A stretch of DNA of 64,000 nt, taken from NCBI RefSeq assembly GCF_011492945.1, contig NZ_CP045119.1:930001-994000 (forward strand). The letters run 5' to 3'. Both the position numbers and the translations under genes were made by a program. Each line of letters begins with the position of its first letter. Position 1 is the stretch's first letter. The notes beneath the pieces are model-generated. The model was not told the origin of the DNA, did not search any database, and saw nothing but the letters and a program-made list of their open reading frames with translations. Below are positions 12,023 through 58,276 of the stretch, piece by piece. The DNA is from Rubrobacter tropicus. Lineage in GTDB: Bacteria; Actinomycetota; Rubrobacteria; Rubrobacterales; Rubrobacteraceae.

Positions 12023-12159
12023 GTCAGCCCCTCTCCCGAAAAGACCACCGTCCTCCCCCGAAAATTATATAGACCGCGCCCGCCTCGCGCTTGCCGACGG
12101 TTGACGCTGTGCCCGCCCCCGGCCACACTGATACGCCAACCGGAAAAGGAGAAGCGCAC

Positions 12160-12972: not shown

Positions 12973-12996
12973 TCAGGACAGAGGAGAGGAGAGACG

Positions 12997-13188: not shown

Positions 13189-13209
13189 CAGGCCGGCGCC
13201 TGACGGGCC

Positions 13210-13542
13210 TCAAGCCCGCGAGGCGGCCTCCAGCAGCCGCACCAACAGCTCTATCCGCTCGACCTCAAGCCGCGCCTCGTAGTGCGCAAGCTCCGCCCGG
13301 CGCTTCGCGGAGAGAAGCTCCGCGTGCTCCGGCGTGTCCAGGATGCCCTCCAGGTAGAGCGCGGCGGTGCGCTCGTTCTTGGCCTCGAGCAGGGTGTCGG
13401 CGTTCTCGACCTTCGCACGCCGCTCGTGGTCCGAGAGCGCGTCCGTGGCCGCAACGAGCTCTCGGCGGGTAGCGACCAACCGCCCGTAGGCGGCCGGGAT
13501 TTCCCGTGCCAGATCCCCGGCTTCCGACCTCGTCTCGCCCAC
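13210..13542 (-). CDS. hypothetical coiled-coil protein
   Basis: The 110-residue product is almost entirely helical and charged, with heptad-like spacing in the C-terminal half (HYEARLEVERIELLVRLLEAA). GTG 13542 is chosen because GGAGGGGG lies 8 nt upstream. A TAAGAT hexamer coincides with the earlier ATG at 13584, suggesting that ATG is part of the promoter and not a start. It is convergent with the small gene at 12997. No family is recognised. Confidence 0.6.
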   Translation of the reverse strand: MGETRSEAGDLAREIPAAYGRLVATRRELVAATDALSDHERRAKVENADTLLEAKNERTAALYLEGILDTPEHAELLSAKRRAELAHYEARLEVERIELLVRLLEAASRA

Positions 13543-13665
13543 GCGACGTACCCCCTCCGAAGTATCAACCCGGCCGGGACGCATCTTACCCCGTTACGGG
13601 CACCTCATCTTCGCGTTTCGAAGGCGTCTGAAAGCGGTTTGCAATGAGAGTGAACCTCTTTGCAA

Positions 13666-13801
13666 GGCTGTCAGCTCTCGGCCATCAGCTTTCAGCAAGA
13701 GCAAGAAGCTGATGGCCGAGAGCGTAGGCCTGCGGAGCAGCCCGAAGCGGGCTGATCGCTGACGGCGCGGTTTTCGGAAGCTCATTGCTTCCGAAAACCG
13801 C
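13666..13801. repeat. heptad repeat element with hairpin (copy c)
   Basis: Left heptads include an 18-nt arm at 13674-13691 that is the exact reverse complement of 13706-13723. This is followed by the GAAGCGGGCTGATCGCTGAC box and a hairpin at 13767-13801 (15-bp stem, loop TCATT). Compared with copy a, the stem has GGAAGC paired with GCTTCC where copy a has GGGAGC with GCTCCC. Confidence 0.8.
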
Positions 13802-13802
13802 T

Positions 13803-14081
13803 CTAGGCGAGCTCTTCGGGCAGGAGGGCACCCGGGGCGTTCTCGAACCACCAGCGCCTCATGCGCCACTTCGTGCCCGTGCGGCAGCCCTGGCCGATGG
13901 GCGCCTGCGTCTCCGCGTCCAGGACCCGTCCCACGAAGAGGTATCCGTCGGGCCTGGCGGCGTCCTCGATCCGGACGACCTCGACGACCGTGCCGGGCAC
14001 CACGACCTCGTCGCCGTCGCGCTCGAACCTCCACCCGTCGGAGAGCCAGAGCCCGACCAGCTCGGCGTGCAGGCCGATCAC
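13803..14081 (-). CDS. hypothetical protein, 92 residues
   Basis: A small soluble protein with beta-rich composition (DGDEVVVPGTVVEVVRIED) and a Trp/Arg-rich C-terminal part (GTKWRMRRWWFENAPG). No family is recognised. Its ATG overlaps the stop of the next upstream gene by 4 nt, and that gene overlaps a third, so the three small genes at 13803-14738 form a coupled operon. Its end abuts repeat copy c. Confidence 0.55.
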   Translation of the reverse strand: MIGLHAELVGLWLSDGWRFERDGDEVVVPGTVVEVVRIEDAARPDGYLFVGRVLDAETQAPIGQGCRTGTKWRMRRWWFENAPGALLPEELA

Positions 14082-14296
14082 GCCGGTGTCCCCGCGAGTT
14101 CCGTCCGCCCGGGGTCGGCGAGTCTCTCGACGCCCTCGGGGATGTCCTCCGGCTGAAAGAAGGCCCCCGGGTCCACGGGGAAGACCAGGCGCGCCCCCTC
14201 CCCGGCGAGCTCCGCGGCCCGCTCGATTGAGGGCGCGGTCACCCTCGATCTGACGGTTGCCGTTCCGTAGCGTCTCTCAAAGGTGACGTGGATCAT
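14078..14296 (-). CDS. hypothetical protein, 72 residues
   Basis: A small protein that begins MIHVTFERRYGTATVRSRVTA and continues with an acidic helix (IERAAELAGEGARLVF). It overlaps the preceding gene by 20 nt and the following one by 4 nt. This tight packing supports translation. No known domain is recognised. Confidence 0.5.
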   Translation of the reverse strand: MIHVTFERRYGTATVRSRVTAPSIERAAELAGEGARLVFPVDPGAFFQPEDIPEGVERLADPGRTELAGTPA

Positions 14297-14738
14297 CGTC
14301 TCTCCCGCGTTCTTTGCTTTCTTTGCATACGAACTCCGAACCTCTCCGGATCTCCCTCGCCGCGCGGTCGTCCCTCCCCGGTTTGGCGCAGGGTACTCCC
14401 AGGCCGTCTACGATCGAGAGCAGATCCTCCAGGTCGGCGTCCTCGAGCGTCGAGCAGTGGCCGTCCGCGCGGATGCTGATCTTCGGCGCCTCGGCGTAGG
14501 GGTAGAACTCCACCCAGACGGGACCGCCGTCGCGGCCCGACCGCCGGTAGGGCTGGCTGCAGAGCACCAGGCGGGGGCCGAGGCGCCGCACCTCGGCGGC
14601 GAGGTCGTCCGGATCGACGACCCTCAGGTCCAACCGGGGCCTCAACCGCCCGATCGCCGTGCCGATGGCGCTGGCGTAGAGGCGCGGCTCGACCGCCACC
14701 AGGACGACGGGGCGATCCCCCTCCGAGACGCCCGTCAT
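14277..14738 (-). CDS. hypothetical protein with degenerate receiver-like fold
   Basis: The 153-residue product alternates strands and helices like a response-regulator receiver: VVLVAVEPRLYASAIGTAI, then LRVVDPDDLAAEV and PRLVLCSQPYR. The position of the phosphoacceptor Asp is occupied by CSQP, so phosphorylation is unlikely. The C-terminal part resembles nothing known and ends in Lys/Arg-rich sequence. ATG 14738 has GGAGGGC just upstream. Encoded next to, but divergent from, a histidine kinase; a pseudo-receiver role is only a guess. Confidence 0.6.
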   Translation of the reverse strand: MTGVSEGDRPVVLVAVEPRLYASAIGTAIGRLRPRLDLRVVDPDDLAAEVRRLGPRLVLCSQPYRRSGRDGGPVWVEFYPYAEAPKISIRADGHCSTLEDADLEDLLSIVDGLGVPCAKPGRDDRAAREIRRGSEFVCKESKERGRDDDPRHL

Positions 14739-15062
14739 CCGCCCTCCGCCCGCGCAGGACCTGCCAGGGCCAGGAAGGTGGGCTCGGGGGCGGCTGGGGT
14801 GATGGGTGGGGAAGAAAGGAGGTGCCGCCCGGGTCCGAGCCCGTCGATGGCGCACCGCCGGCGACGAAAGCGCGGCGTGTGCCGCTCCTTGTGTGTGCCG
14901 ACGTCCATCTTGCCAACGAGTATGACCCGCCACGACCGTCCTGCCATCGGGCTTTCTCACTACCGGCGGGCGGGGAATAACGGCTAGGGATAACGCCGCA
15001 CGCGAGGTCGCCGGCGGCGCGCTTTTTGGGGCTCTGATCGGCCCCGACCCCGGGGTAGTAGA
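14739..15062. other. divergent intergenic region, 324 bp
   Basis: Separates the small-gene operon (minus strand) from the histidine kinase (plus strand). A TAGAAT hexamer at 15059-15064 overlaps the first ATG of the kinase frame. No repeat element, RNA gene or convincing coding sequence was seen in the rest. Confidence 0.5.
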
Positions 15063-16955
15063 ATGTACGGACGCTGCGGGGCAGCGGAAAACCGTCTACC
15101 GGACCAACGAAGTCTTGGAGGGTCGTGGTCGGCGTTGGAAGAGGGAATTTACCGCGCGGTGGTGGAGCGTAACCCCGTCGGGGTTCTGGTCTACGACCCG
15201 GATACCAGGGGCATCCTGTACGCCAACCCGGCGCTGGAGGGCATGCTTCTGTACGGGGCGGGGGAACTACGGGAGACGCAGCTGTACGACCTCTTCGCCC
15301 TCGACCGCCGGGACACGGACGCCCGGACGGGCCGGGCCCTCGAGGCGGGGCAGTGCCCGCCGGACGAGGTAAGGCTGCGACGCAAGAACGGCTCCCTCGT
15401 CCGCGCCGAGGTCCGTCTGGTCGCGATACCCCACGTCGGCCGCGGGGCCGTCTGCGCGCTGGTTCGGGATGTCGAAGACGAGGTCCGGGGCAAGCCGCGC
15501 GGCACCGCGGCCTTCGCCCGATCCGCCATCGACAGCCTCTCCGCGCACGTGGCGATCCTCGACGGGACCGGAACCATCGTCGCCACCAACAGGCCCTGGC
15601 GCCGGTTCGCCGAGGCAAACGGGGCCGTCCCGGCGGAGGTCTCGGAGGGCGTCAACTACCTGGAGGTCTGCGACGCGGCCGCGGGCCGGAACTGCGCCGA
15701 CGCCGCCGCTTTCGCCCGGGGGATGAGGTCCGTGCTCTCCGGGCGGGAGGAGGCCTTCGAGCGCGAGTACCCCTGCCACTCGCCCACCGAGCGCCGGTGG
15801 TTTGTCGGGCGGGTTACGCGGTTCGCCGACACCGAACCGCCGTGGGCGGTCGTCGCCCACGAGAACGTTACCGGGCGAAAGAAGGCAGAGAACGCCCTGC
15901 AGGACCAGAACGTATTGCTGAAGACCACCCTCAGCCAGGCGGCCGAAGCCATCGTGGTCTGCGACCTGCAAGGGAGGTTCACGTTCGCCAACGACGCGGC
16001 GAGACGCATGGCGATGACGGAACCCGAAGGCTCCACCCTGGACGCCGTATCGGAGGTGGCGGGGGTGCCCCACTACCCCGATGGCACCCGCATGCCCGTG
16101 GAACAGAGCGCGATGCGAAGGGCCCTGCGGGGGGAGACCACCGTCGGCATGGAGGTACGAATGGTCAGGCCCGACGGCAGCCACTACGATCTCCTCGCCA
16201 GCGCCGGTCCTCTGGAGAATTCGGACGGCACGATCGTCGGCGCGGTCGCGAGCTTCCGGGACATCACGGAGCAAAAGGCGATGGAGGAGGAGAGGGAGCG
16301 TTCGCGCGGACGGGAGATCGCGACCCGCACCCAGAGAGAGGAGCGGCGCAGGATCTCCCGGGACCTGCACGACATGGTGCTCCAGGATCTCTCAGGGGCG
16401 CTGCAGTCGCTGCGCCTCGCCCACCTGCACGCCAGAGGCGCGGGGTCGCCCCTCGACCTGGAGGAGGAGCTCGGGGCCCTGCGGCGGGCGACCGCGGGCC
16501 TGCGGGGCGCCATCTACGACCTGAGGCACGAGGAAGAACGGACGTTCGTGAGGTCCGTCGAGTCGCTCGTCGAGCTCAACCGCCAGGCGACGCCGGGGCG
16601 CCGGATCTCGCTCGGCGTGGAGGAAGGGTTCCCGGAGGAACTGCCTGGCGAGGTGGGCGTGGAACTGCTTCGCATCCTGCAGGAGGCGCTCGCCAACGCC
16701 AGGCGCCACTCCGGGGCGGAGAACGTGCGGGTGAGGCTTCTCGCGGAGGGCGGCGAGGCGCTGGCGGAGCTGACCGACGACGGTCGAGGGTTCGAGCCGG
16801 GGGAGGTCAGGGAGGGCGTCGGGCTCTCGGCCATGCGAGAGCGGGTCGAGCGCCTGGGCGGCGGGATCGAGGTGGTCAGCCGGCCCGGCGAAGGGACGCG
16901 GGTTACGGTCAGGGTGCCTCTGGGGGGCGGTACTCCAGATCCTCGACCTCTATGA
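15063..16955 (+). CDS. multi-PAS sensor histidine kinase, NarL-type (HisKA_3)
   Basis: The product has three PAS-like modules (roughly residues 25-140, 155-275 and 280-410), each with PAS features such as GILYANPALEGML and GRFTFANDAARRM. The third ends in DITEQKAMEEERE. A HisKA_3 dimerisation helix follows, with EERRRISRDLHDMVLQ containing the phosphorylated His, then an ATPase with EALANARRHSG, DDGRGF and GVGLSAMRERVERLGG. No transmembrane segment is evident, so sensing is probably cytoplasmic. The first ATG coincides with a TAGAAT hexamer; TTG 15135, behind GGAGGG, may be the true start. The gene converges on its probable partner regulator and overlaps it by 47 bp. Confidence 0.88.
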   Translation: MYGRCGAAENRLPDQRSLGGSWSALEEGIYRAVVERNPVGVLVYDPDTRGILYANPALEGMLLYGAGELRETQLYDLFALDRRDTDARTGRALEAGQCPPDEVRLRRKNGSLVRAEVRLVAIPHVGRGAVCALVRDVEDEVRGKPRGTAAFARSAIDSLSAHVAILDGTGTIVATNRPWRRFAEANGAVPAEVSEGVNYLEVCDAAAGRNCADAAAFARGMRSVLSGREEAFEREYPCHSPTERRWFVGRVTRFADTEPPWAVVAHENVTGRKKAENALQDQNVLLKTTLSQAAEAIVVCDLQGRFTFANDAARRMAMTEPEGSTLDAVSEVAGVPHYPDGTRMPVEQSAMRRALRGETTVGMEVRMVRPDGSHYDLLASAGPLENSDGTIVGAVASFRDITEQKAMEEERERSRGREIATRTQREERRRISRDLHDMVLQDLSGALQSLRLAHLHARGAGSPLDLEEELGALRRATAGLRGAIYDLRHEEERTFVRSVESLVELNRQATPGRRISLGVEEGFPEELPGEVGVELLRILQEALANARRHSGAENVRVRLLAEGGEALAELTDDGRGFEPGEVREGVGLSAMRERVERLGGGIEVVSRPGEGTRVTVRVPLGGGTPDPRPL

Positions 16956-32438: not shown

Positions 32439-33206
32439 CTAAATCACCGAGCTAGAAGGCCCGCCCGAGACGTAGATGGTCTCGCCGCTGATGTACGAGG
32501 CCTCGTCGGAGACGAGGAAGGCGACGACGTTGGCGATGTCCTCGACGCGGCCGAAGCGCTTGAGGGGGATGTTCTTGGCGAACCGCTCCTTCATGTCCTC
32601 CATGGTCATCCCGACCCGCTCGGCTGCCTCCTTGGTCATCTCGGTCTCGATCCAACCCGGCGCGACCGCGTTGACGTTTATGTTGAACCGGCCGACCTCG
32701 AGCGCCAACGTCCGCGCCAGAGCCTGCAAACCGGCCTTGGCCGCCGAGTAGTTGGCCTGACCTTTGTTGCCCAAAGCAACTATGGAGCTGGTCATCACGA
32801 TCTTGCCGTACTCCTGCTCGACCATGTACTTCTGCGCCGCCTTGGAGCAGAGGAAGCTGCCCTTGAGGTGCACGTCGAGAACCTTGTCCCAGTCGTCCTC
32901 GCTCATCTTGAACGAGAGGTTGTCCCTGAGGAGCCCCGCATTGTTGACCAGGATGTCCACCCGACCGAATCGGTTGTGGATCTCCTCGAAAGCCTTCTCG
33001 ACCTGCTGCGCGCTCGACACGTCGCACGCGATCGCAATGGCCTCGGCCCCGGCCGCCTCGACGGCCTCGACCGTCTCCTGACAGGCCTCCGCCGAAAGGT
33101 CCAACACCGCGACGTTGGCACCCTCCTGCGCCATCCGAATCGCCTCGGCCGCCCCGATGCCCCGCGCGGCACCCGTGACAACCGCCGTGCGTCCGCTAAG
33201 CCTCAA
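32439..33206 (-). CDS. SDR family oxidoreductase, 3-oxoacyl-[ACP]/acetoacetyl-CoA reductase-like
   Basis: The 255-residue short-chain reductase has TGAARGIG for cofactor binding, NNAG, catalytic Ser in MTSSIV and YSAAK. The C-terminal YISGETIYVSGG is typical of FabG-like reductases. It resembles phaB at 35989 in general layout. A TATRTGY-type dyad upstream at 33297-33315 suggests control together with PHA genes. Cofactor is not certain: GAARGIG followed by DLSAEA favours NAD(H). Confidence 0.85.
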   Translation of the reverse strand: MRLSGRTAVVTGAARGIGAAEAIRMAQEGANVAVLDLSAEACQETVEAVEAAGAEAIAIACDVSSAQQVEKAFEEIHNRFGRVDILVNNAGLLRDNLSFKMSEDDWDKVLDVHLKGSFLCSKAAQKYMVEQEYGKIVMTSSIVALGNKGQANYSAAKAGLQALARTLALEVGRFNINVNAVAPGWIETEMTKEAAERVGMTMEDMKERFAKNIPLKRFGRVEDIANVVAFLVSDEASYISGETIYVSGGPSSSVI

Positions 33207-33296: not shown

Positions 33297-33315
33297 TATG
33301 TGTCCAGTGGAGATA
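33297..33315. promoter_or_regulatory. imperfect PHA-regulon dyad
   Basis: TATGTGT-CCAGT-GGAGATA fits TATRTGY-N5-RCAYATA at 12 of 14 positions, with a perfect left half. Lies in an unusually AT-rich stretch between the SDR gene and the subtilase gene, 91 bp from the SDR start. Confidence 0.4.
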
Positions 33316-33403: not shown

Positions 33404-33478
33404 TCAGTATATCGCGCTGCCTCCTGGCGGATCATAATAGTGCGAACCTTCGGGAAAGTCCTTGGAAGAGGAGGAGAG

Positions 33479-35875: not shown

Positions 35876-35996
35876 GTCAGCGAATCAGCCGGTCAGCACT
35901 TCGGCTTGTCAGCACTTCGACGCCGCAACAAAGAGGAGGGGCCCGGTTCACCGGGCCCCTCCTCAAACTTTGCTGACCGGCTGACCAGCTAGGTCC
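35876..35996. repeat. heptad repeat element containing bidirectional terminator (copy i)
   Basis: Left arm has GTCAGCGAATCAGCCGGTCAG units, right arm GCTGACCGGCTGACCAGC. Between them at 35933-35964 is a 14-bp stem (GAGGAGGGGCCCGG, loop TTCA). Sits between convergent protease and phaB genes and should stop transcription both ways. Confidence 0.85.
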
Positions 35997-36738
35997 TTAT
36001 GTAGACGCCGCCGTTGATGTCGAGTGACTGTCCCGTGATGTAGTCGCCGTCCTCGACCAGGTACCGGACGGCGCGCGCGATCTCCTCGGGCTCGCCGAAG
36101 CGCCTCAGCGGCACCGATTTCAGGAGCTTCTCCTTTGCCTCCTCCGGGATGGCCGCAACCATGTCCGTGTTTATGAAGCCGGGGCAGATGGCGTTGACGG
36201 TTATTCCGTAGCGGGCCAGCTCGAGGGCCGCGGTCTTGGTGAAGCCGAGCAAGCCGCCCTTGGCCGCGGAGTAGTTCGCCTGGCCGATATTGCCGGCCTC
36301 CCCGACGAAGGAGCTCATGTTGATGATCTTGCCCCCGCCTGCCTCGGTCATGTGCGGCAACACCGCGTGCACGGTGTAGAAGGCGCTGTTCAGGTCGACC
36401 TGGATCACTTTGTCCCAATCATCCACCGTGAGCTTCTTGAGCGTCTTGTCTATGTTGATCCCGGCGTTGTTGACCAACACGTCGATCCTGTTGAACCGCT
36501 CTATCGCCTTGTCTATGAGTGCCTGCGCCTGCTCCGGGTCCGAGACGTCACCCTGGACCGCTATCGCCTCACCGCCCGCCTCTTCTATCTTTGAGACCAA
36601 CTCTTCGGCGGGCTCCTTGCTTCGCGAGTAGTTGACGACGACCTTCGCCCCACCCGCCGCGAGCTCCTCGGAGATCGCCGCGCCAAGCCCCCGGCTCGCC
36701 CCCGTCACTACCGCAACCGCTTCTTTCAGAGTTCCCAC
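35989..36738 (-). CDS. phaB: acetoacetyl-CoA reductase / 3-oxoacyl reductase (SDR)
   Basis: The 249-residue reductase has TGASRGLG, VNYSRS after the second strand (an NADPH-type pattern), NNAGIN, NMSSFVGEAGNIGQANYSAAK with catalytic Ser, Tyr and Lys, and DINGGVYI at the end. In PHA synthesis PhaB reduces acetoacetyl-CoA to (R)-3-hydroxybutyryl-CoA. Divergent from the phaQ-phasin-phaA genes and preceded by a PHA-type dyad at 36804-36822, which supports PhaB over a fatty-acid FabG role. Confidence 0.82.
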   Translation of the reverse strand: MGTLKEAVAVVTGASRGLGAAISEELAAGGAKVVVNYSRSKEPAEELVSKIEEAGGEAIAVQGDVSDPEQAQALIDKAIERFNRIDVLVNNAGINIDKTLKKLTVDDWDKVIQVDLNSAFYTVHAVLPHMTEAGGGKIINMSSFVGEAGNIGQANYSAAKGGLLGFTKTAALELARYGITVNAICPGFINTDMVAAIPEEAKEKLLKSVPLRRFGEPEEIARAVRYLVEDGDYITGQSLDINGGVYIRT

Positions 36739-36880: not shown

Positions 36881-36915
36881 TTGACGAGTACATATATATG
36901 TGTAGACTGCATATA
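36881..36915 (+). promoter_or_regulatory. phaQ promoter with overlapping operator
   Basis: TTGACG (36881-36886) and TAGACT (36903-36908) are separated by 16 bp. The dyad TATGTGT-AGACT-GCATATA at 36897-36915 covers the -10 hexamer, the arrangement expected for repression. Predicted transcription start is near 36915. Confidence 0.7.
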
Positions 36916-36934
36916 GAGTATGGAAGAGAGAGCT

Positions 36935-37345
36935 ATGAACAACGAAGAAAAAGGGCGTGCTGTCGGGGACCGGGAGGCTGGTTTCCGGGGGGTAGAGGCG
37001 CGGCCCAGGAACTGGCTGGTGCCGGTGATCCTGTTGTCGTTGCGCGAATGGAACTCCTACGGCTACGAGCTTATGGAGCGGGCTTCGAACTTCGGGTTCG
37101 AGGCGATGAACCCGGGGACGTTGTACAGGACGCTCAGGCAGATGGAGAAGGACGGGATCGTGGAGTCCAGTTGGGAGACCTCCAGGGGAGGACCGGCCCG
37201 CCGGATGTACACGATCACGGACGCGGGGAAGGCTTACCTGGACTTCTGGGCCAGGTCCCTCGAGCAGTACCAGCAGACCATGGACACCTTCTTCCGGCTC
37301 TACACGGGAAGGCCGTTGAAAGACGAGCCGGACGAGAAGAAGTAG
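36935..37345 (+). CDS. phaQ: PadR family regulator, PHA-responsive repressor PhaQ-like
   Basis: A winged-helix PadR protein: NWLVPVILLSLREWNSYGYELME is the PadR N-terminal signature, followed by PGTLYRTLRQMEKDGIVES and RRMYTITDAGKAYLD. A C-terminal helix (YQQTMDTFFRLYTG) should mediate dimerisation. PhaQ of Bacillus represses phasin genes and is released by PHA. Here the two phasin-like genes follow at once. ATG 36935 gives a 20-nt leader from the predicted start site with GGAAGAGAGAG; ATG 36920 is possible. The operator over its own promoter implies autoregulation. Confidence 0.85.
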   Translation: MNNEEKGRAVGDREAGFRGVEARPRNWLVPVILLSLREWNSYGYELMERASNFGFEAMNPGTLYRTLRQMEKDGIVESSWETSRGGPARRMYTITDAGKAYLDFWARSLEQYQQTMDTFFRLYTGRPLKDEPDEKK

Positions 37346-37384: not shown

Positions 37385-37720
37385 ATGGCTACCAACGTCG
37401 AGAAGGCCAACAAGGCCGCCGAGAAGCTGGCCGAGACCACGCGCGATTCCTACCAGACCGTCGTGGACCACGCGGTCGGGCTGCAGGAGCGGAACGTCAG
37501 GTTCGCGCAGGGTGTGGTCGATGGTTCCATCAAGGAGCTGCGCCACCAGGCCGAGAGCAACCGGGCGATGACCCAGGAGCTCGTGGAGCGGGCCGAGAAG
37601 CAGCGCGAAGCCTACCAGACGCTCGTCGAGCAGTCCCTCGACGCGTACCTGGACCTCGCCTACGCGCCCCTCTCCTACTACAAGGAGGGCCTGCAGGTCG
37701 CCAAGAAGGCCACCAGGTAA
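37385..37720 (+). CDS. phasin-like PHA granule-associated protein
   Basis: A 111-residue, fully helical protein without Cys or membrane segments. Long amphipathic stretches (NKAAEKLAETTRDSYQTVVDH, and LVERAEKQREAYQTLVEQ) match the phasin pattern, ending DLAYAPLSYYKEGLQVAKKA. Phasins coat PHA granules and influence their size. It follows phaQ by 39 nt and precedes a paralogue. Family assignment rests on composition, helix pattern and context more than on an exact motif. Confidence 0.75.
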   Translation: MATNVEKANKAAEKLAETTRDSYQTVVDHAVGLQERNVRFAQGVVDGSIKELRHQAESNRAMTQELVERAEKQREAYQTLVEQSLDAYLDLAYAPLSYYKEGLQVAKKATR

Positions 37721-37857: not shown

Positions 37858-38199
37858 ATGGATCAGAAACAGCAGAAGCAGGTAAACGAGGCGGCCGAGA
37901 AGTTCGCCGGGGCGATCAAAGAGTCTTACCAGGCGATCGCCGATAGGTCGGTCTCCGCGCAGGAGCTAAACGCGCAGCTCACGCAGGAGTTCTTCAACGG
38001 GGTCATCAACAACCTGAGGACCCAGGCCTCCAACAACCGGGCGCTGGCCGACGACCTGATCGAGCAGCAGCGCAAGCAGCAGGAGGCCTCCCAGGCGCTC
38101 GCCCAGGAGGGCGCGAACGCCTACATGGACTTCCTGAACTCCATGTTCTCCTACTACAGGGGGGACCTGGAAGAGGCCCAGAAGCGGGCCAAGAGGTAG
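37858..38199 (+). CDS. phasin-like protein, paralogue
   Basis: A 113-residue all-helical protein, Gln-rich at the N-terminus (MDQKQQKQVNEAAEKF). It aligns by eye with the upstream phasin-like protein: AIKESYQAIADRSVSAQELNAQ against TTRDSYQTVVDHAVGLQERNVR, and FSYYRGDLEEAQKRAKR against LSYYKEGLQVAKKATR. AGGAAAGGATCGAAAAC precedes the ATG. Its own terminator follows. The duplication suggests specialisation in granule coating. Confidence 0.75.
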   Translation: MDQKQQKQVNEAAEKFAGAIKESYQAIADRSVSAQELNAQLTQEFFNGVINNLRTQASNNRALADDLIEQQRKQQEASQALAQEGANAYMDFLNSMFSYYRGDLEEAQKRAKR

Positions 38200-39507: not shown

Positions 39508-39669
39508 TAGCTGTCAGCTTTTAGCTTTCAGCTATCAGCCAAGAGAAGGGACCGGGGTGAGAAACCCCGGTCCCTTCTCTTTTGCTTCGGCAAGACCGGC
39601 GAGGTCTGAAGCCCGAGAGTCCCGTCCCCAAACGGACAAGCTGAAAGCTGACGGCTGATAGCTGAAAGC
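39508..39669. repeat. heptad repeat element containing an 18-bp terminator stem (copy j)
   Basis: Left arm CTGTCAGCTTTTAGCTTTCAG and right arm AAGCTGAAAGCTGACGGCTG flank a perfect 18-bp stem at 39541-39581 (AAGAGAAGGGACCGGGGT, loop GAGAA) followed by TTTG. Lies between convergent phaA and GNAT genes. Confidence 0.85.
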
Positions 39670-39671
39670 CC

Positions 39672-40223
39672 TTACGCCGCCGTGCTCGGCCTCAGGTCGA
39701 TCTCGACGTGCTCGGCCCCGTCTTCCCACCGTTTGCGCTCCGGGAGGTCGAGGCTGCGCAGCAGGTGGAGCATCCCGGCGTTCTCGCGCATGACGAGGGC
39801 GTACAGCCGTTCGAGACCGTTCGCGCGGGCGGCCTCTATGAGGTGGCGGGTGAGCCCGATGCCGAGCCCCCGGTCCTGGAACCTGTCCTCCACGAGCGCC
39901 GCGTACTCGGCCGCGTCGGTGCCGGGCTCGCGCTCGTAGCGGACCACGCCCACGACCTCCCCGGGGTCCTCGGGATCGAGCGCCACCAGCGCGAACCGGT
40001 CCCGGCCGTCGACCTCCGCGAACCGCCGGGCCTGCTTGTCAGAGAGCCTCTTGAGGGGGCCGAAGAACCTCAACTCTACCGACCTGTCGCTCGACCGCGC
40101 CACGAGACGCTGCAGCGCCGCCGCGTCCCCGGCGCGTATCTCGCGCACCGGCACGCAAACGCCGTCTCGCAACGCCAGAACCCGCGTGTCGTCCATCATA
40201 TCGACGCCCCCGTAGAGGGCCAT
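39672..40223 (-). CDS. GNAT family N-acetyltransferase
   Basis: The 183-residue GNAT protein has VREIRAGDAAALQRLVAR at the start, VGVVRYE on strand 4 and the acetyl-CoA loop EDRFQDRGLGIGLTRHLIEAAR. VELRFFGPLKRLS resembles the GNAT domain of protein lysine acetyltransferases of the Pat type. ATG 40223 lies 3 nt after a TACAAT hexamer, so ATG 40199 or 40196 may be the real start. A perfect PHA dyad lies at 40234-40252 in its promoter, placing it in the PHA regulon. Substrate unknown. Confidence 0.82.
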   Translation of the reverse strand: MALYGGVDMMDDTRVLALRDGVCVPVREIRAGDAAALQRLVARSSDRSVELRFFGPLKRLSDKQARRFAEVDGRDRFALVALDPEDPGEVVGVVRYEREPGTDAAEYAALVEDRFQDRGLGIGLTRHLIEAARANGLERLYALVMRENAGMLHLLRSLDLPERKRWEDGAEHVEIDLRPSTAA

Positions 40224-40233
40224 GAATTGTATC

Positions 40234-40252
40234 TATGTGCGTATTGCATATA
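40234..40252. promoter_or_regulatory. perfect PHA-regulon dyad upstream of the GNAT gene
   Basis: TATGTGC-GTATT-GCATATA fits TATRTGY-N5-RCAYATA at all 14 positions. It precedes a TACAAT hexamer on the minus strand and sits 11 bp from the first ATG. Confidence 0.7.
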
Positions 40253-42343: not shown

Positions 42344-42371
42344 TTGACAGTATATGCGTAGTGAATACAAT
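42344..42371 (+). promoter_or_regulatory. strong promoter with internal PHA-type dyad
   Basis: TTGACA (42344-42349) and TACAAT (42366-42371) with 16-bp spacing form the best promoter match in the window. The dyad TATATGC-GTAGT-GAATACA (42351-42369, 12 of 14 positions) fills the spacer and part of the -10. A leader of about 85 nt separates it from the next gene. Confidence 0.7.
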
Positions 42372-42463
42372 GATTTGGAGGTCCGGGCTTCGGGCCGTAA
42401 GAGATCGGGGACGACGGGCGATCGTAAGTGTTCGGTCCCTGAGTCTACAAGAGGTAGGAGTTT

Positions 42464-42643
42464 ATGAAGAAGGCGTTGTACGAGGCGGTTTTGCAGGACG
42501 TTGGCAGGTACGAGGATCTGGCCCTCAGGGCAGAGGGTTCCGCGGACGATGAGCTCGCGGGGTTCTTCCGCGAGGTGCGCGACGAGAACCGGCTCAGGGC
42601 CGAGAAGGCCAGGCGGTTGCTTGCTCAGCGGGTTGCCGAGTAG
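42464..42643 (+). CDS. small helical hypothetical protein, 59 residues
   Basis: Starts MKKALYEAVLQDVGRYEDLA and ends RLRAEKARRLLAQRVAE; charged and helical throughout, with no membrane segment. TAGGAG lies 3 nt before the ATG. It is first behind the strong promoter at 42344 and 23 nt before the adenylate-kinase-like gene. A granule-associated or regulatory role is possible from context only. Confidence 0.6.
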   Translation: MKKALYEAVLQDVGRYEDLALRAEGSADDELAGFFREVRDENRLRAEKARRLLAQRVAE

Positions 42644-42666
42644 CGGCGTTCAAGAGGAGGAACAGC

Positions 42667-43347
42667 ATGAGGGTAGCTTTCATAGGTCCGGTGGGATCGG
42701 GCAAGAGCAGTCAGGCGCAGAGGCTTTCGTGGTCGCTGCCGTTCTACAACCGGTCGCCGAGGCTCTCCACGGGTGATCTTGTGCGGGCCCAGATCGAGGC
42801 TCGCACGCCGCTCGGGGCGCGGATCGGGGCCCTCCACGATGCCGGCGAGCCGGTCCCCGACGGGGTCGTATTCGACCTGCTGCTGCCGCACGTGCGGACG
42901 GCGGGGGGCTTCGTCCTCGACGACTTCCCGGCCAACGCGGGGCAGGCCGAGATCCTGGACGCGGAGCTCGAGGAACGCGGCGCCGGGCCGTTGCGCCACG
43001 TGATCTCGCTAGAAGGACCGTCGGACGACGAGCTCGTCGGGCGGGTCCTCGGCGGCCGGGTCCACAGCCGGGCGACCGACGCCGCGTACCACCTGAAGAA
43101 CGACCCGCCGCCGGGGCCCGAGAAGAGGCTCGACCCGGGCCCGTTCGAGCGGCGCAGCGACGACACCGAGGAGTCGCTCAGGCGGCGTCTGGGCGCGTAC
43201 CGCCGGGAGCACGCGCTCCTCAAAGAGCACTACGAGGCGCGGGGCGTGCTGACGGTCATCGACGCCGGGCGGCCGCTCGACAAGGTGGCCGAAGGCGTGC
43301 TCGACGCGCTCGGGCATCCCGAGAACCCGCAGTACTACGCGGTCTAG
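42667..43347 (+). CDS. adenylate kinase-like nucleoside monophosphate kinase
   Basis: The 226-residue P-loop protein has GPVGSGKSSQAQRL, STGDLVRAQIEA, FVLDDFPANAGQAEILD and a LID-like segment with RRSDDTEESLRRRL, all in adenylate kinase order. The usual GFPR is replaced by DDFPAN, so the NMP-binding Arg of that motif is missing. Typical housekeeping Adk lies in ribosomal clusters; this is probably a divergent paralogue. It is cotranscribed with the small protein at 42464. Confidence 0.8.
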   Translation: MRVAFIGPVGSGKSSQAQRLSWSLPFYNRSPRLSTGDLVRAQIEARTPLGARIGALHDAGEPVPDGVVFDLLLPHVRTAGGFVLDDFPANAGQAEILDAELEERGAGPLRHVISLEGPSDDELVGRVLGGRVHSRATDAAYHLKNDPPPGPEKRLDPGPFERRSDDTEESLRRRLGAYRREHALLKEHYEARGVLTVIDAGRPLDKVAEGVLDALGHPENPQYYAV

Positions 43348-43377: not shown

Positions 43378-44295
43378 GTGCCAGTAACGATCACCGAGAA
43401 CACCAGCATAGACTACGACGTCCAGGGCGAGGGGCCGCCGCTGCTCCTCGTCAACGGGCTCGGCTTCGGCCGGTGGGGCTGGTTCAGGCAGGTCCCCGCC
43501 TTCTCGCGCCACTTCCGCACCATCACCTTCGACATCCGGGGCGAGCGAAGCCTCGGCAACGGCGTCGCCGACCTCGTCGACGAGGTCGTCGCCCTGTTGG
43601 ACCACCTCGGGGTGAAAAAGACGCACGTGCTCGGCACCTCGTTGGGCGGCTTCGTGGCGCAGGAGCTCGCGCTCGCGCGGCCCGACCTCGTGGACAGGCT
43701 CGTGCTCGTGTGTACGAGCTACGGGGGCAGGGGGCCCGAGGCGATGTCGCCGGGGGCGCTGGCGGACATGATGGGCCTGGGGACTTTCAGCGCCGAGGCC
43801 GCGGCCCGCAAGGCGCTGGAGGCGGCGACGGGCGAGGTCTACCGGGCCGAGAAGCCCGAAGAGTTCGAGAAGATAGTGCACTGGCGGCTCGCCGATTCGT
43901 CCTCCGCCGTCTCGTACTACGAGCAGGCGAAGGCGGGGGCCAGGTTCGACCTCTCCGGGGACGTCGGGCACATCACCTCGCCGACGCTCGTGATCCACGG
44001 CTCGGAGGACCGTTACGTGCCGCCCGCCAACGCCCGCGCCCTGGCGGACGCCATACCGGGCGCGAAGCTCCGGGTCCTCGAAGACGCCGGGCATCTCGTC
44101 TTTATCGAGAGGTTCGCGGACGTCAACAGGGAGGTCGTGCGCTTCCTGAAGTCCCGCGACGGGCGGCAATCTCGCGGAGTTGGCGGGAAGACCGGGGAGA
44201 AAGTGGCGCGGGAGCCCGGAGGGTGGCTCCGGGGCGCCGTGAACGCCCTCCGGGGGTGGGCCGCGCGGATGAGGGCCTGGATGGGCCTCTCGTAG
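43378..44295 (+). CDS. alpha/beta hydrolase with amphipathic C-terminal tail
   Basis: The 305-residue protein has an alpha/beta hydrolase core: LLVNGLGFGRWGW, nucleophile Ser in GTSLGGFVAQ, Asp in HGSEDRYVPP and His in DAGHLVFIERF. After residue 265 comes a basic, Gly/Arg-rich linker and an amphipathic helix (WLRGAVNALRGWAARMRAWM), unusual for the family and suited to binding a membrane or PHA surface. It directly precedes class I phaC, so a PHA depolymerase or granule-bound esterase is plausible. Confidence 0.82.
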   Translation: MPVTITENTSIDYDVQGEGPPLLLVNGLGFGRWGWFRQVPAFSRHFRTITFDIRGERSLGNGVADLVDEVVALLDHLGVKKTHVLGTSLGGFVAQELALARPDLVDRLVLVCTSYGGRGPEAMSPGALADMMGLGTFSAEAAARKALEAATGEVYRAEKPEEFEKIVHWRLADSSSAVSYYEQAKAGARFDLSGDVGHITSPTLVIHGSEDRYVPPANARALADAIPGAKLRVLEDAGHLVFIERFADVNREVVRFLKSRDGRQSRGVGGKTGEKVAREPGGWLRGAVNALRGWAARMRAWMGLS

Positions 44296-44326
44296 CCTCC
44301 CGCGTCTGGCAACCAGCCAAAACGGG

Positions 44327-44346
44327 TAGACTGTGTTCCGCAACAC
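44327..44346 (+). promoter_or_regulatory. phaC promoter: -10 TAGACT and adjacent inverted repeat
   Basis: TAGACT at 44327-44332 is followed immediately by GTGTT-CCGC-AACAC (44333-44346), a perfect 5-bp inverted repeat where transcription would start. No clear -35 was found. Confidence 0.45.
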
Positions 44347-44377
44347 AAGAAGAAGAACGGTTCGTCTGGAGGACTGC

Positions 44378-46297
44378 ATGAGCGAAGAAAAAACTGGCGG
44401 CAGCGGGACGATGGGTACCGCGTCGGCGCCCTTCGACCTGTGGGCGCAGTGGATGCGGGCCAACATGGGCGCGATGACGGCCACGCCGGGCGCGAGCGTC
44501 CCCTGGCTCGCCGCGCCGGGCGTCTCGACCGGGGACGAGGTCAAGGACCTTCCATCCGGTGCGATCCGTAACGATCCCCTGCTCTCGACCCTCGAGAAGT
44601 TGTGGGACGCCAACCCCATGCAGAACGTGCTCCCCATAAACTGGGTCGAGATCTCCAAATCCCTCCAGACCCTCTGGCAGCGCGAGCTCTCCGACCCCGC
44701 CGCCGCCATGCAACGGGCCACGGACTTCAACACGAAGCTCTGGGGCGCGACGCTCGAAAGCTGGCAGGACGCCGCCAACCGCTTCTGGGGCATCGAGGGC
44801 AAGAAAGAAGATGAGGGCCGCCCCGACAGGCGATTCTCCGCGCCCGACTGGACCGAGAACCCCTACTACGAGACGCTAAAAGAGTCGTACCTGCTCGCGT
44901 CCGAGTACCTGCTCAACGAGGTCGAGGAGACCGACGGCCAGGACAACGAAGAGCAGCGGCGCATGAGGTTCCACCTGCAGCAGTTCGTGGACGCGCTGGC
45001 CCCGGTCAACTTCCTTCTCACCAACCCGGCGGCCCTCAAGAGGGCATTCGAGACGGGCGGGGTGAGCCTCGCGGAGGGCACCCGCAACCTCCTCTCGGAC
45101 CTCGAAGAGGGCCGGATGAGCATGACCGACGCAAACGCCTTCCAGCCCGGCGAGAACCTCGCCATCACGCCCGGCAAGGTCGTATACAGGAACGATCTCA
45201 TAGAGCTCATCCAGTACGAGCCGACGACCGAGAAGGTCCACGAGACCCCGATAGTCTTCTTCCCGCCCTGGATCAACAAGTACTATATCCTCGATCTGCA
45301 GCCGAAGAACAGCATGGTCAAGTACCTCGTCGACGAGGGCTTCACCGTCTTCATGGTCTCCTGGAAGAACCCGGACGCCTCGATGGAAGAGACCAAGTTC
45401 GAGGACTACATGACGATGGGCCCGCTCGCGGCCGTCGAGGCCGTCAAGGACATCACCGGCTCCGAGAAGGTGAACCCGGTCGGCTACTGCGTCGGCGGGA
45501 CGCTGCTCGCCGTTACGCTCGCCTGGCTCGCCGCCGGCGGGGACGAGAACCCCTTTGGCGCCTGCACGTTCATGGTCTCCTTGCAGGACTTCGCCGAGGT
45601 CGGGGATACGGCGGTGTTCATGGACGAGCCGCAGGTCGAGTTCATGGAGCAGCAGATGATGGAGCGCGGTTACCTGGACAACCGCAAGATGGCGAACATG
45701 TTCAACCTGCTGCGTTCCAACGACCTGATCTGGTCCAACGTCGTCAACAACTACCTGCTCGGCCAGAAGCCGCCCGCCTTCGACCTCTTGTACTGGAACG
45801 CCGACGGCACGCGGATGGCCCGCGACGCCCACAGCTTCTACATCCGCAACACCTACCTCGAGAACAACCTCATAAAGCCCGGCAAGGTCGAGGTGCTCGG
45901 GCGCAAGATAGACCTCGGGACCATAGAGGGCGAGGCCTACGCCGTCGGCGCCGAGAAGGACCACATAGTGCCGTGGCACTCGGCGTGGAAGATAAGCCAG
46001 GTCACCAACCTCAACACCCGCTTCGCGCTCGCAAACTCGGGCCACATAGCCGGCATGATCAACCCCCCGAGCAAGGGCAAGGGTAAGCACTGGGTAAACG
46101 AGTCCGGCGACGCAGGCTCCGCCGCCACGGCCGAAGAGTGGCGCGCCAACGCCACGGAGCAAGAGGGCTCCTGGTGGGAGGACTGGACGAACTGGCTCGA
46201 ACCCTTCTCGGGCGAAGAGGTCGACCCGCCGAAGATGGGCAGCGAGAAGTATCCCCCGGTAGAGGACGCCCCCGGCTCTTACGTGAAGGAGAAGTAG
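44378..46297 (+). CDS. phaC: class I poly(3-hydroxyalkanoate) synthase
   Basis: The 639-residue protein has the PhaC N-terminal domain (QTLWQRELSDPAAAMQ, ENPYYETLKESYLLASEY) and the catalytic hydrolase domain. Cys371 lies in the lipase box GYCVGGT, with Asp528 (EKDHIVPW) and His556 (NSGHIAGMINPP). Length and the N-terminal domain place it in class I, which acts without PhaE. It polymerises (R)-3-hydroxyacyl-CoA on granules. ATG 44378 follows GGAGG. It is some 50 residues longer than typical class I, mainly by its acidic N-terminus and the C-terminal tail. Confidence 0.92.
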   Translation: MSEEKTGGSGTMGTASAPFDLWAQWMRANMGAMTATPGASVPWLAAPGVSTGDEVKDLPSGAIRNDPLLSTLEKLWDANPMQNVLPINWVEISKSLQTLWQRELSDPAAAMQRATDFNTKLWGATLESWQDAANRFWGIEGKKEDEGRPDRRFSAPDWTENPYYETLKESYLLASEYLLNEVEETDGQDNEEQRRMRFHLQQFVDALAPVNFLLTNPAALKRAFETGGVSLAEGTRNLLSDLEEGRMSMTDANAFQPGENLAITPGKVVYRNDLIELIQYEPTTEKVHETPIVFFPPWINKYYILDLQPKNSMVKYLVDEGFTVFMVSWKNPDASMEETKFEDYMTMGPLAAVEAVKDITGSEKVNPVGYCVGGTLLAVTLAWLAAGGDENPFGACTFMVSLQDFAEVGDTAVFMDEPQVEFMEQQMMERGYLDNRKMANMFNLLRSNDLIWSNVVNNYLLGQKPPAFDLLYWNADGTRMARDAHSFYIRNTYLENNLIKPGKVEVLGRKIDLGTIEGEAYAVGAEKDHIVPWHSAWKISQVTNLNTRFALANSGHIAGMINPPSKGKGKHWVNESGDAGSAATAEEWRANATEQEGSWWEDWTNWLEPFSGEEVDPPKMGSEKYPPVEDAPGSYVKEK

Positions 46298-55800: not shown

Positions 55801-55885
55801 AAGGGCGAGGCTGCGAAAGCCCCGCCCTTCTCCTACAAGCCGGTCAGCGACGCAAAGAAGCTGACCGCTGAAAGCTGAAAGCTCT
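55801..55885. repeat. terminator hairpin plus heptads (copy l)
   Basis: Hairpin AAGGGCG-A-GGCT / AGCC-C-CGCCCTT at 55801-55829 followed by CTCC, then heptads AGCTGACCGCTGAAAGCTGA reaching the class III phaC stop codon. Lies between convergent genes. Confidence 0.7.
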
Positions 55886-56984
55886 AAGCGCCGGACCTTT
55901 CTCCGAGCCAGGAGCTAACCTTCGGCCAGAGGCCCCTCTTGGCGCCGCGGCCGGTCATGAGGCCGACGTGGCCGGCGTCCAGCGGGAAGAACTCCTTGTC
56001 CTCGCTGCCCACGAGGTTCATGGTCGCCTCGGCCTGCGGGAGGGCGCAGATGTGGTCCTTGGTGCCCGCGATGTTGAGGAGCGGGACCTTTATGTTGGAG
56101 AGGTCGACGCGGCGACCGCGGAGGACTATCTCGCCCTTGGAGAGCTTGTTCTGCTGGTAGAACTCGCTTATCCACTGCCTGAAGGTGGCGCCGGGGAACG
56201 GCGGGCCGTCGTTTACCCACTTGTTCATGGCGAGCCAGGTCTCCATCGGCTTGTCCTCGAAGAGGCGCTCCCACATGTTGACGTAGGTGCCGACGTAGTT
56301 TGTGACGGGCTTGAGCATCCTGTTGCCCGTGTCGATCAGGTCGCCGGGTATGTTCCCGAAGGCATCCGCCAGAAGCCCGGGGTTCATGTACTTCTCGCTC
56401 GTGAAGAGGCTGTAGAGCCCCATCTCGCCCTCCGGGAAGTCTATGGGGGCGGTGAGGAGCACGAGGTTCTTGAGGTGCTCCGGGTAGAGCGAGGCGTACA
56501 TCGCGCTCATGGTGCCGCCCATGCAGTAGCCGAGCAGCGTGAACTCGTCGGAACCGGAGTGCTTGAGGACCTTCTTGACGGCCCTCGGCAGGTAGTCGAG
56601 GACGTAGTTCTCGAAGTCGAGGTCCTTGTCCTCGTCGCCGGGGACGCCCCAATCGAGCATGTAGACGTCGAAGCCCTCGTCGCACAGGAACTCTATGAAG
56701 CTGTTGCCCGGCATGAGGTCCAGGATGTAGGGGCGGTTGATGAGGGCGTAAACCATCAGGATCGGGACCGGGTGCTTCTTCTCCGCGGCCGGGGCGTAGT
56801 GGTAGAGCCTGGCCTTGTTCTTGGTCCAGATGGTCTCCTTGGGCGTCTGGCCGGTGTCGGCCTGGGCGCCCTCGACCACGATCCTCATCCCGCGGCTGTA
56901 CTTGTCGAAAAAGTTCTCGACGTCGGCCGGGACCGTCGCGTCCTGCGACGTCGGCTGCGCGCCGTAGTTGGCGGTCTCCGTCAT
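55884..56984 (-). CDS. phaC: class III PHA synthase catalytic subunit
   Basis: The 366-residue protein has nucleophile Cys154 in GYCMGGT, Asp in GTKDHICALP and His in DAGHVGLMTG. LMVYALINRPYILDL and FDVYMLDWGVPGDEDK are typical of class III/IV PhaC. Length (about 360) and the adjacent phaE establish class III. It forms the PhaEC complex on PHA granules. The ATG directly follows the phaE stop. The window thus has two catalytic PHA synthases of different classes. Confidence 0.93.
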   Translation of the reverse strand: MTETANYGAQPTSQDATVPADVENFFDKYSRGMRIVVEGAQADTGQTPKETIWTKNKARLYHYAPAAEKKHPVPILMVYALINRPYILDLMPGNSFIEFLCDEGFDVYMLDWGVPGDEDKDLDFENYVLDYLPRAVKKVLKHSGSDEFTLLGYCMGGTMSAMYASLYPEHLKNLVLLTAPIDFPEGEMGLYSLFTSEKYMNPGLLADAFGNIPGDLIDTGNRMLKPVTNYVGTYVNMWERLFEDKPMETWLAMNKWVNDGPPFPGATFRQWISEFYQQNKLSKGEIVLRGRRVDLSNIKVPLLNIAGTKDHICALPQAEATMNLVGSEDKEFFPLDAGHVGLMTGRGAKRGLWPKVSSWLGERSGA

Positions 56985-58019
56985 CTAGCTGTCTCCCTTC
57001 TTGCGCACGTCCTCGACGGTGACCTGGCCGTCGGTCCCCGTGCCTTCTACGCTGGCGAGGTCCACGCCCAACTCCCGCGCCTTGCGCCTGGCCGCGTCCG
57101 TCGCCTTGACCTCCGCGGTCGCGGAGCCGTTGGCCTGAACATTTTGCGCCTGGGCCTGCGCCGCGCCGTTCTGGTTCTCCAGCGCCGCGAGCAGCTTGTC
57201 GAGCTTGCCCTCTACCCGGTCTAGCCGCCCGCCCAGCGTCTGCACGGATTCGGCGGTCGCGGCCTGCTCCCCGGCCTGCGTGATCCGCTTCAGGGCGCTC
57301 TCCAGGCCGCCGATCCGACCCTCCAACGCTTCGATAGAATCAGCTGTGGCCGGCTTGGCGGGGGTATACTCGAAGTCTTCGAGGACCTCCTCGATCCTGT
57401 CGACCTTGTCCTCCAGGTTGATGACGAGCCCTGCCACCCGCGAGATGTCAGACCGGACCGGCAACTGCAGGCTCTTCAGGTACTCCTCTGAGTTGCGCTT
57501 GAAGACCTTGTAGAAGCCCGCGTAGCTCTGGAGGAACTGGCTGGAAGGCTCCAGAAACTCCTCGCGCTCGATGACGTCCCCGAGAAAGTCCGAGAAGGGA
57601 CCGCTCGTGGCGTTGTACCACCGGGTCGCGAACTGGAGGGGGTCAGCCGGCAGGCTCCCGCCGGCGAGCAGGTTGTCCCGCGCCTCTTCGAGCATCTGCG
57701 TCCAGCGGGGCAAAAGGTCGAGGGCGTTCTGGCCGAGCTCGGCGCCCTTCTGCCAGGTCGCAGTCGAGGCTTCCTGCCACCGCTGCATCATGTCCTGCAT
57801 TCCTGGGTTGCCCTCCACGGCCTGGGGCGCCGCCCCGATCATGCGCTCCTGCATCTCTCGCGCGCCGTCGAACCACCGCCGGTAGAACTCGGCCGGGTTG
57901 CCGTAGCCACCCTGGGCCCCACGCGCCGCGTCAGACCACAGCCTCGTGCTCGTCTCGTACCACTGCCGCCACAGATCCGTGGGGTCCATGACCGACCGGG
58001 ATCCTCGCTCCTCCGTCAA
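56985..58019 (-). CDS. phaE: class III PHA synthase subunit PhaE with C-terminal E3-binding-like domain
   Basis: The N-terminal two thirds are PhaE-like: DLWRQWYETSTRLWSD, QDMMQRWQEASTATWQ, and the conserved region LEPSSQFLQSYAGFYKVFK. A helical section follows (ALEGRIGGLESALKRITQAG, LGGRLDRVEGKLDKLLAAL), probably a coiled coil. The last 35 residues, ARRKARELGVDLASVEGTG-TDGQVTVEDVRK, match the peripheral subunit-binding (E3-binding) domain of 2-oxoacid dehydrogenase E2 proteins, unexpected in PhaE. TTG 58019 has GGGAGG 8 nt upstream; ATG 57989 is possible. Confidence 0.85.
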   Translation of the reverse strand: MTEERGSRSVMDPTDLWRQWYETSTRLWSDAARGAQGGYGNPAEFYRRWFDGAREMQERMIGAAPQAVEGNPGMQDMMQRWQEASTATWQKGAELGQNALDLLPRWTQMLEEARDNLLAGGSLPADPLQFATRWYNATSGPFSDFLGDVIEREEFLEPSSQFLQSYAGFYKVFKRNSEEYLKSLQLPVRSDISRVAGLVINLEDKVDRIEEVLEDFEYTPAKPATADSIEALEGRIGGLESALKRITQAGEQAATAESVQTLGGRLDRVEGKLDKLLAALENQNGAAQAQAQNVQANGSATAEVKATDAARRKARELGVDLASVEGTGTDGQVTVEDVRKKGDS

Positions 58020-58066: not shown

Positions 58067-58106
58067 ATTATACTGCAAAAAGAAACTTATGTGTTAATGG
58101 CATATA
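58067..58106 (-). promoter_or_regulatory. phaE promoter with perfect PHA-regulon dyad
   Basis: On the minus strand TATAAT occupies 58067-58072 and TTAACA 58092-58097 (19-bp spacing). The dyad TATGTGT-TAATG-GCATATA at 58088-58106 (plus-strand reading, 14 of 14 consensus positions) covers the -35 region, compatible with repression. Confidence 0.7.
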
Positions 58107-58116
58107 CCGTTGGGAG

Positions 58117-58276
58117 CAGTCAGCTATCAGCTGTCAGCTTTCAGCCGGTCGTTGGCAGACGGTACGTTTCTGGCGGTTCGTCTCTCTACTGCCGTACGCT
58201 ACCGGGCAGCGGTTTACGCTCCGGTGGCGGTACTACCAACAAAAAGCTGACAGCTGATAGCTGACAGCTGAAAGCG
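58117..58276. repeat. heptad repeat element with long inverted arms (copy m)
   Basis: Left arm: CAGCTAT, CAGCTGT, CAGCTTT units. Right arm: AGCTGAC, AGCTGAT, AGCTGAC, AGCTGAA units, the clearest tandem in the window. About 95 bp lie between. This copy is in a divergent promoter region, unlike most others, which follow genes. Confidence 0.85.

Follow-up and report, generated by a model that had tools for sequence, protein, structure and literature searches.

In the 64,000 nucleotides of Rubrobacter tropicus DNA analyzed here (the window; positions 930001 to 994000 of contig C1 in genome G000), a promoter-like sequence with a dyad in its spacer precedes genes for a 59-residue protein (mini59) and an adenylate kinase paralogue (ADK2), upstream of a class I PHA synthase gene. 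The locus raises the question of whether this promoter belongs to a PHA regulon and whether the two proteins are new members of it, as the initial annotation had supposed. Most of what is established about PHA regulation comes from Proteobacteria and Bacillus. PMC9049629 agrees with this picture. A Rubrobacter PHA paper (PMC8146576) describes PHA accumulation by R. xylanophilus and R. spartanus; a term search of its main text returned no mention of PhaQ or adenylate kinase, and among the literature matches listed, which cover few subscription journals, no title concerns PHA operators or phasin regulation in Rubrobacter.

A conserved promoter precedes mini59 and ADK2

The promoter and the genes behind it are as follows.

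42344 to 42371, plus strand: core promoter TTGACA-N16-TACAAT of mini59, ADK2, and abh, kept in G003 (two copies) and G001
42464 to 42643, plus strand: mini59, 59 residues, a predicted two-helix hairpin, half-ferritin-like and without the ExxH metal motif
42667 to 43347, plus strand: ADK2, a divergent adenylate kinase paralogue with the GFPR arginine replaced by alanine
43378 to 44295, plus strand: abh, alpha/beta hydrolase, 30 nt after ADK2
44372 to 46297, plus strand: phaC, encoding a class I PHA synthase, next after abh (TIGR01838, 672.1 bits, above the cut-off of 622.65)

The coordinates and sequence are as originally described: TTGACA at 42344, a 16-nt spacer, and TACAAT with its last base at 42371 (agreement with the consensus at 11 of 12 positions), followed by the 59-residue reading frame and the adenylate kinase-like one. 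The first starts with ATG behind GTAGGAG and the second, of 226 residues, with ATG behind AGGAGG. Between relatives, dN/dS is 0.19 to 0.42 for the mini59 frame and 0.20 to 0.44 for the kinase frame; both are under purifying selection. The best NCBIfam matches of abh are to 3-oxoadipate enol-lactonase models, with PHA depolymerase models weaker and all of them below cut-off. Because the gap between ADK2 and abh is so short, abh is probably on the same transcript as the pair.

The promoter had been called the best of the window, which holds for spacers of 16 to 18 nt; when spacers of 15 to 19 nt are scanned, it is tied at 11/12 with a 19-nt-spacer site upstream of phaE. A string within two mismatches of it occurs in 33 of 100 shuffled windows, so the hexamers alone are little proof, and conservation was therefore examined. 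The two hexamers and the distance between them are retained, as is the dyad, in G003 C129, G003 C182, and G001 (the last with TATAAT). At the level of sequence, this conservation among relatives is the real evidence for the promoter.

The dyad belongs to a box that marks PHA genes

We compared regions upstream of phaQ, phaB, GNAT, phaC, mini59, and other genes across Rubrobacteraceae relatives. The phaQ and GNAT leaders have in common the motif TATRTGY-N5-RCAYATA, which we call the PHA box. For scoring, 13 distinct sites from the phaQ and GNAT leaders were used to train a symmetric half-site matrix; a full-length 19-position matrix that included the spacer over-fitted the phaQ -10 element and was dropped in its favor. 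Besides those listed above, the PHA genes of the window are these.

32439 to 33206, minus strand: second phaB-like SDR, 45% identical to phaB
35989 to 36738, minus strand: phaB-type reductase (NCBIfam profile)
36920 to 37345, plus strand: phaQ-like PadR regulator, candidate box binder (TIGR02719, 136.2 bits)
37385 to 37720, plus strand: phasin-like protein 1, assigned from its place in the conserved cluster and a Phasin_2 match below cut-off (E 0.012)
37858 to 38199, plus strand: phasin-like protein 2, 41% identical to phasin-like protein 1 over 100 residues
38296 to 39504, plus strand: phaA-type thiolase (NCBIfam profile)
39672 to 40223, minus strand: GNAT acetyltransferase of the PHA cluster, with a paralogue beside ADK2 in a second module
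55884 to 56984, minus strand: class III phaC, with phaE behind the 58088 box
56985 to 58019, minus strand: class III phaE, behind the 58088 box

Six sites in the window score at least 12, none with an assigned strand.

58088 to 58106: box of the class III phaE-phaC genes, score 25.4, perfect match
36897 to 36915: phaQ box, divergent to phaB, score 25.4, perfect match
40234 to 40252: box of the GNAT gene, score 24.9, perfect match
42351 to 42369: box TATATGC-GTAGT-GAATACA within the mini59 core promoter, score 17.7, fourth in the window
33297 to 33315: weaker box-like site 91 nt upstream of the phaB-like SDR gene and also upstream of a plus-strand reading frame at 33440, score 15.3
36804: site in the phaB/phaQ interval, score 14.8

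In 30 simulated 64-kb sequences the top score was 16.7, and sites of at least 14 averaged 0.03 per sequence. The dyad in the 42344 promoter scores above this, at 17.7, and belongs, as had been claimed, to a PHA-associated operator family. Its left half is perfect; its right half is degenerate, matching GCACATA at four of seven positions (GAATACA), and overlaps the -10 hexamer. Because this half is imperfect, binding at the site is not certain. The same form, TATRTGC-N5-GAATACA, is conserved in three loci. As an internal control, no upstream region reached 12 for phaC (0/17), phaA (0/15), phasin1 (0/13), or h143 (0/6), with some loci counted twice.

The class I phaC has its own conserved leader, which contains no PHA box. 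This leader carries a conserved dyad of its own (TGTGTTCCGCAACACA type) at 44320 to 44350, right after a TAGACT -10 element; considered as a PHA box, it was rejected, as it gave no score with the matrix. Inverted AGCTGTCAGCTTTCAGCT-type repeats lie between genes at 39509 to 39663 and 58113 to 58275.

Across the window genome there are five perfect boxes, located before phaQ, phaE, GNAT, a phasin-like gene, and a phaC-III-like gene, so that each of the five precedes a gene of the PHA cluster or of PHA type. The matrix was trained on phaQ and GNAT genes and not on the other three. Every Rubrobacteraceae genome in the search (36 of 36) contains a perfect box, with 120 sites altogether, where a reversed control pattern gave 2 matches; genomes of other families contain 3 sites in 24. 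When one box was sampled from each of 26 other genomes of the family, 20 lay on stretches of about 3 kb with recognized PHA-cluster genes, and six (L187, L188, L194, L196, L200, and L204) had no recognized PHA neighbor. Among 349 other genes in the called loci, 15 have a site of at least 13 within 200 bp upstream, and these are PHA-cluster genes, phasin genes, or genes sharing an intergenic region with one of these or with a mini-protein gene. A one-mismatch box also lies upstream of another phasin-like gene of the window genome (C1:443708, L135), whose product is 32% identical to the phasin-like protein of L134.

It is very improbable, and strongly disfavored, that 42344 is a constitutive sigma-A promoter with a chance dyad and coincidental PHA neighbors: a string as good arises in one of every three shuffled windows, and the -10 hexamer shares positions with the right half of the dyad, but the dyad outscores the best of the 30 simulated windows, is kept in three loci, and has perfect counterparts at orthologues elsewhere. 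A sharply defined operator common to a deep actinobacterial family would make the PHA regulon of that family readable from sequence. The box points to proteins not previously tied to PHA in the literature examined, namely the mini59/C3 family, GNAT, and ADK2.

PhaQ is the candidate reader of the box

The PhaQ-like protein of the window falls just under the TIGR02719 cut-off of 139.35 bits; matches over the cut-off occur in 14 of 60 genomes. Its gene sits behind its own presumed operator, with phasin-like genes downstream. In Bacillus (Priestia) megaterium, PhaQ is a PHB-responsive repressor of phaQ and phaP, and a phasin gene comes immediately after its autoregulated gene (PMC9049629). The window has a similar arrangement, with two phasin-like genes behind a PhaQ-like gene of the PadR type, but differs in that the presumed operator is also found at phaE, GNAT, phaC-III-like, and mini-protein genes, and family-wide. 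From this analogy and from the position of its gene, we infer that PhaQ is the box-binding protein.

It is unlikely that the box, while real, is read by a regulator other than PhaQ, such as another PadR protein, and that its genes answer to a signal other than PHA. A box precedes phaQ in 16 of 16 upstream regions, with a score of at least 20.7 (G016 counted twice and training sites included), as expected of an autoregulated PhaQ, and box sites cluster at PHA genes. Such a regulator would fit the second PhaQ-like PadR protein of the window genome (C1:3158210, 77.3 bits), the slightly sub-threshold score of the phaQ product, and genome G007, a fragmented assembly with three boxes and no PhaQ hit.

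mini59 is a well-supported member of the PHA regulon

The strict mini59 family comprises eight copies, in G000, G003 (two), G005, G014, G031, G026, and G012. A box is present upstream in all seven orthologues with readable upstream DNA, the G005 copy being cut by a contig end. The boxes of G000 and G003 (twice) are promoter-embedded, have the TATRTGC-N5-GAATACA form, and score 16.7 to 17.7. G031 and G026, of one genus, and G012, of another, have perfect boxes 59 to 67 nt upstream of mini59, and in G014 a perfect box stands roughly 250 nt ahead of the gene, beyond the 200 bp over which this locus scored -4.4. In the mini59 loci of G031, G026, and G012, tblastn found no PHA gene or kinase in the surrounding 5.4, 9.0, and 10 kb read. 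Since orthologues retain the box even at loci where the search turned up no neighboring PHA gene, the membership of mini59 in the PHA regulon is well supported, as far as sequence can indicate. The proposal of a new regulon member is thus borne out for mini59, with the window copy of the box imperfect. G001 has lost the mini-protein along with most of the kinase; what remains before abh is a box (21.7) and the final 19 residues of the kinase. Because both genes lie behind a control element that marks PHA genes, mini59 and the kinase are probably new parts of the PHA programme. In G014, the DNA separating the PHA box from mini59 contains a short basic reading frame of 36 residues that has a ribosome-binding site (L043, 1645 to 1755).

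A paralogous family, C3 (63 residues), shares DDELA-F and LLAQR with mini59. Boxes scoring 13.7 to 26.4 precede 8 of the 11 C3 members with upstream DNA; the other three are the first copy in G003 C44 (9.7), G005 C131 (-5.2), and G004 C81 (none of at least 11). More remote mini59 homologues within the family have no box of at least 12 (18 loci), and those in Nocardia, Nonomuraea, Cellulomonas, Pseudonocardia, and others have none of at least 13 (15 loci).

The description of mini59 as a helical mini-protein is supported by a confident model of a two-helix hairpin (mean pLDDT 89.3). The hairpin superposes on a rubrerythrin half, sulerythrin, and EncB with query TM scores of 0.72 to 0.83 and Foldseek E values of 0.4 or worse. 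Profile searches lean weakly the same way, the best E value being 0.012 for a whole chain with no single convincing stretch. Searches of Pfam, NCBIfam, PHROGs, and plasmids yielded nothing above threshold for mini59, neither a family nor a relative. The modeled hairpin resembles two-helix ferritin-like proteins of the EncB type and rubrerythrin half-bundles, but mini59 has only 59 residues, lacks ExxH, and gives Foldseek E values of at least 0.4 against them. The ExxH metal motif is absent from all 22 aligned rows of the family, so an iron site is not expected. With phasins (PhaP) mini59 shares the character of a small helical protein of the same presumed regulon; it matches no phasin model, and its binding to granules is putative.

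Could mini59 instead be a general stress or redox protein, a half-ferritin that is co-induced with PHA and is not a granule protein? Its faint similarity to four-helix bundles of the rubrerythrin, ferritin, and PA2169 types fits such a role, as do the remote homologues without a box in other actinobacteria. We consider this possible but rather doubtful, given that none of the 22 aligned members has ExxH and that the PHA-boxed branch differs from its box-less relatives. Should mini59 prove to coat granules, its size would be exceptionally small for a granule protein.

ADK2 is a divergent adenylate kinase paralogue that lacks the GFPR arginine

ADK2 passes the gathering cut-off of Pfam ADK (PF00406; 84.8 bits against 26.8) with a match over its whole length; it scores 135.1 bits against NCBIfam adk (TIGR01351), below the cut-off of 168. 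Its nearest solved relative is 2rgx, and its structure model is poor (mean pLDDT 62.1, four sequences). ADK2 is like the bacterial adenylate kinases of these two families in its full-length match, P-loop, LID region, and most catalytic arginines. It differs from them in the GFPR motif and the second GRR arginine, in a four-residue insertion around residues 26 to 29, in its sub-threshold TIGR01351 score, and in being a second copy in a genome that has a canonical adk elsewhere, to which it is 44% identical. The GFPR motif does read DDFPAN, as initially noted. Its arginine is alanine in all four PHA-locus copies, which also have valine for the second GRR arginine and keep the P-loop lysine and four of five checked arginine positions. 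We take the GFPR arginine to be the AMP-phosphate contact of adenylate kinase, and the checked residues to contact the AMP and ATP phosphates.

In a midpoint-rooted tree of 41 kinase sequences (6 of 47 extracted were dropped as partial or broken, with fewer than 190 residues), the PHA-locus copies fall within a fast-evolving group of 12. The GFPR arginine is present in 33 of the 41, including all 29 sequences outside this ADK2 clade; the eight exceptions are all within it (Ala six times, Gln, and Leu). Among the PHA-locus copies dN/dS is 0.24 to 0.37; a single pair of canonical adk genes gave 0.10.

mini59 and ADK2 are not fixed at the PHA locus

The usual gene order is phaB, phaQ, phasins, phaA, GNAT, a gene for a 143-residue protein, acyl-CoA dehydrogenase, and phaC. 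In five loci (G007, G002, G013, G020, and G028 C117) abh stands before phaC and the pair is absent. In G000, G003 C129, and G014, mini59-ADK2 lies between the dehydrogenase gene and abh; in G003 C182 and G005 it precedes abh and phaC near a contig end. We sampled 28 class I phaC genes (27 plus that of the window, with some contigs short). Four have the pair, with the mini-protein of G005 contig-cut; one, G014, has an internally deleted kinase, with the pair and phaC on different contigs; one, G001, has only the C-terminal tail of the kinase; and 22 are without the pair, of which four (G017, G018, G023, and G028 C84) stand apart from the cluster. ADK2 occurs in the mini59 operon in two genera only. 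Its copies in G014 and G001 are deleted or broken, and that of G003 C44 carries a frameshift; all of these are draft assemblies.

The genus of the window has a second, paralogous module, in which C3, C2 (about 80 residues), ADK2, GNAT, abh, and phasin genes occur in various combinations (G003 C44, with a frameshifted kinase, G005 C429, G005 C467, and G004 C82, as well as G005 C13 without a kinase). This module also ties the kinase to phasins. In ADK2-clade loci of G010, G011, G023, G030, G033, G034, and G035, no PHA genes were found in the 3 to 20 kb read, and some genes of the group stand apart from PHA genes, as in genus g3, where ClpB- and QueF-type genes are among their neighbors. The proposal that the pair belongs to the regulon is supported for mini59 and is not supported for the pair as a fixed part of the PHA locus, which is present at 4 of 28 class I phaC genes. 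Occurrence independent of PHA genes, which together with a lack of coexpression was named at the outset as an argument against the proposal, was found for the kinase, whose clade is present in these seven genomes with no PHA genes in the stretches read. ADK2 is probably co-regulated where present, and it is not a core PHA gene.

A rival reading is that ADK2 is a decaying or neutral hitch-hiker, a duplicate adk behind the mini59 promoter that is expressed, contributes nothing, and is being lost. The GFPR and second GRR arginines are lost, dN/dS is raised relative to the canonical pair, the gene has an internal deletion in G014, a C-terminal remnant in G001, and a frameshift in G003 C44, and the pair is absent at 22 of 28 phaC genes. 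This is a real possibility, although we lean against it: dN/dS over the four copies is still well below 1, all four keep the P-loop lysine and four of five arginines, and the same kinase type is present in the second phasin module. An active ADK2 would be a direct link between nucleotide metabolism and storage.

Proposed explanation

We consider it fairly probable that 42344 is a PHA-regulon promoter repressed by PhaQ, with mini59 as a conserved member and granule accessory and ADK2 as a lineage-specific passenger or accessory. The assignment of the promoter draws on the observed box, its conservation, and its association with PHA genes. The repressor would be a PadR-family protein, with the PhaQ-like product of the gene at 36920 as the likeliest candidate, and by binding the box between -35 and -10 it would block RNA polymerase. 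On PHA accumulation, the repressor would be titrated to the granule, and mini59-ADK2-abh would be turned on together with the phasins, with transcription possibly reading into phaC. The predicted mini59 hairpin probably pairs into a four-helix bundle and probably serves as a small accessory to the granule or to one of its enzymes. ADK2, as a nucleoside-monophosphate kinase paralogue with a putatively altered acceptor site, might, tentatively, recycle AMP or another acceptor when AMP-forming CoA ligases re-activate stored 3-hydroxyacids. A bolder version, which we regard as quite improbable, is that in Rubrobacteraceae a novel class of PHA-regulated half-ferritin mini-proteins supplies granule-surface or enzyme-docking parts, one of these proteins being paired with a re-purposed adenylate kinase that links energy charge to polymer making or use; the missing AMP-site arginine would then reflect a new acceptor or a nucleotide-sensing role.

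Related small proteins and adk paralogues

Pairs of C3 (63 residues) and C2 (about 80 residues) genes occur, in several copies each, in G003, G004, G005, and G006 of the genus of the window. These pairs (L114 to L119, L035, L033, and L093) often have a PHA box, and four loci have a third protein of 118 to 121 residues. The small proteins of these pairs match no Pfam family. Another group of adk paralogues, with the GFPR arginine intact, adjoins formate dehydrogenase alpha-subunit genes at seven loci in six genomes (L098, L102, L103, L104, L038, L049, and L045). The longer of these loci add an iron-sulphur beta subunit and an NrfD-like protein (families scanned in L098). The alpha subunit of L098 is encoded by two adjacent reading frames (14699 to 15256 and 12152 to 14686), which may mean that the gene is split or that a stop codon is recoded.
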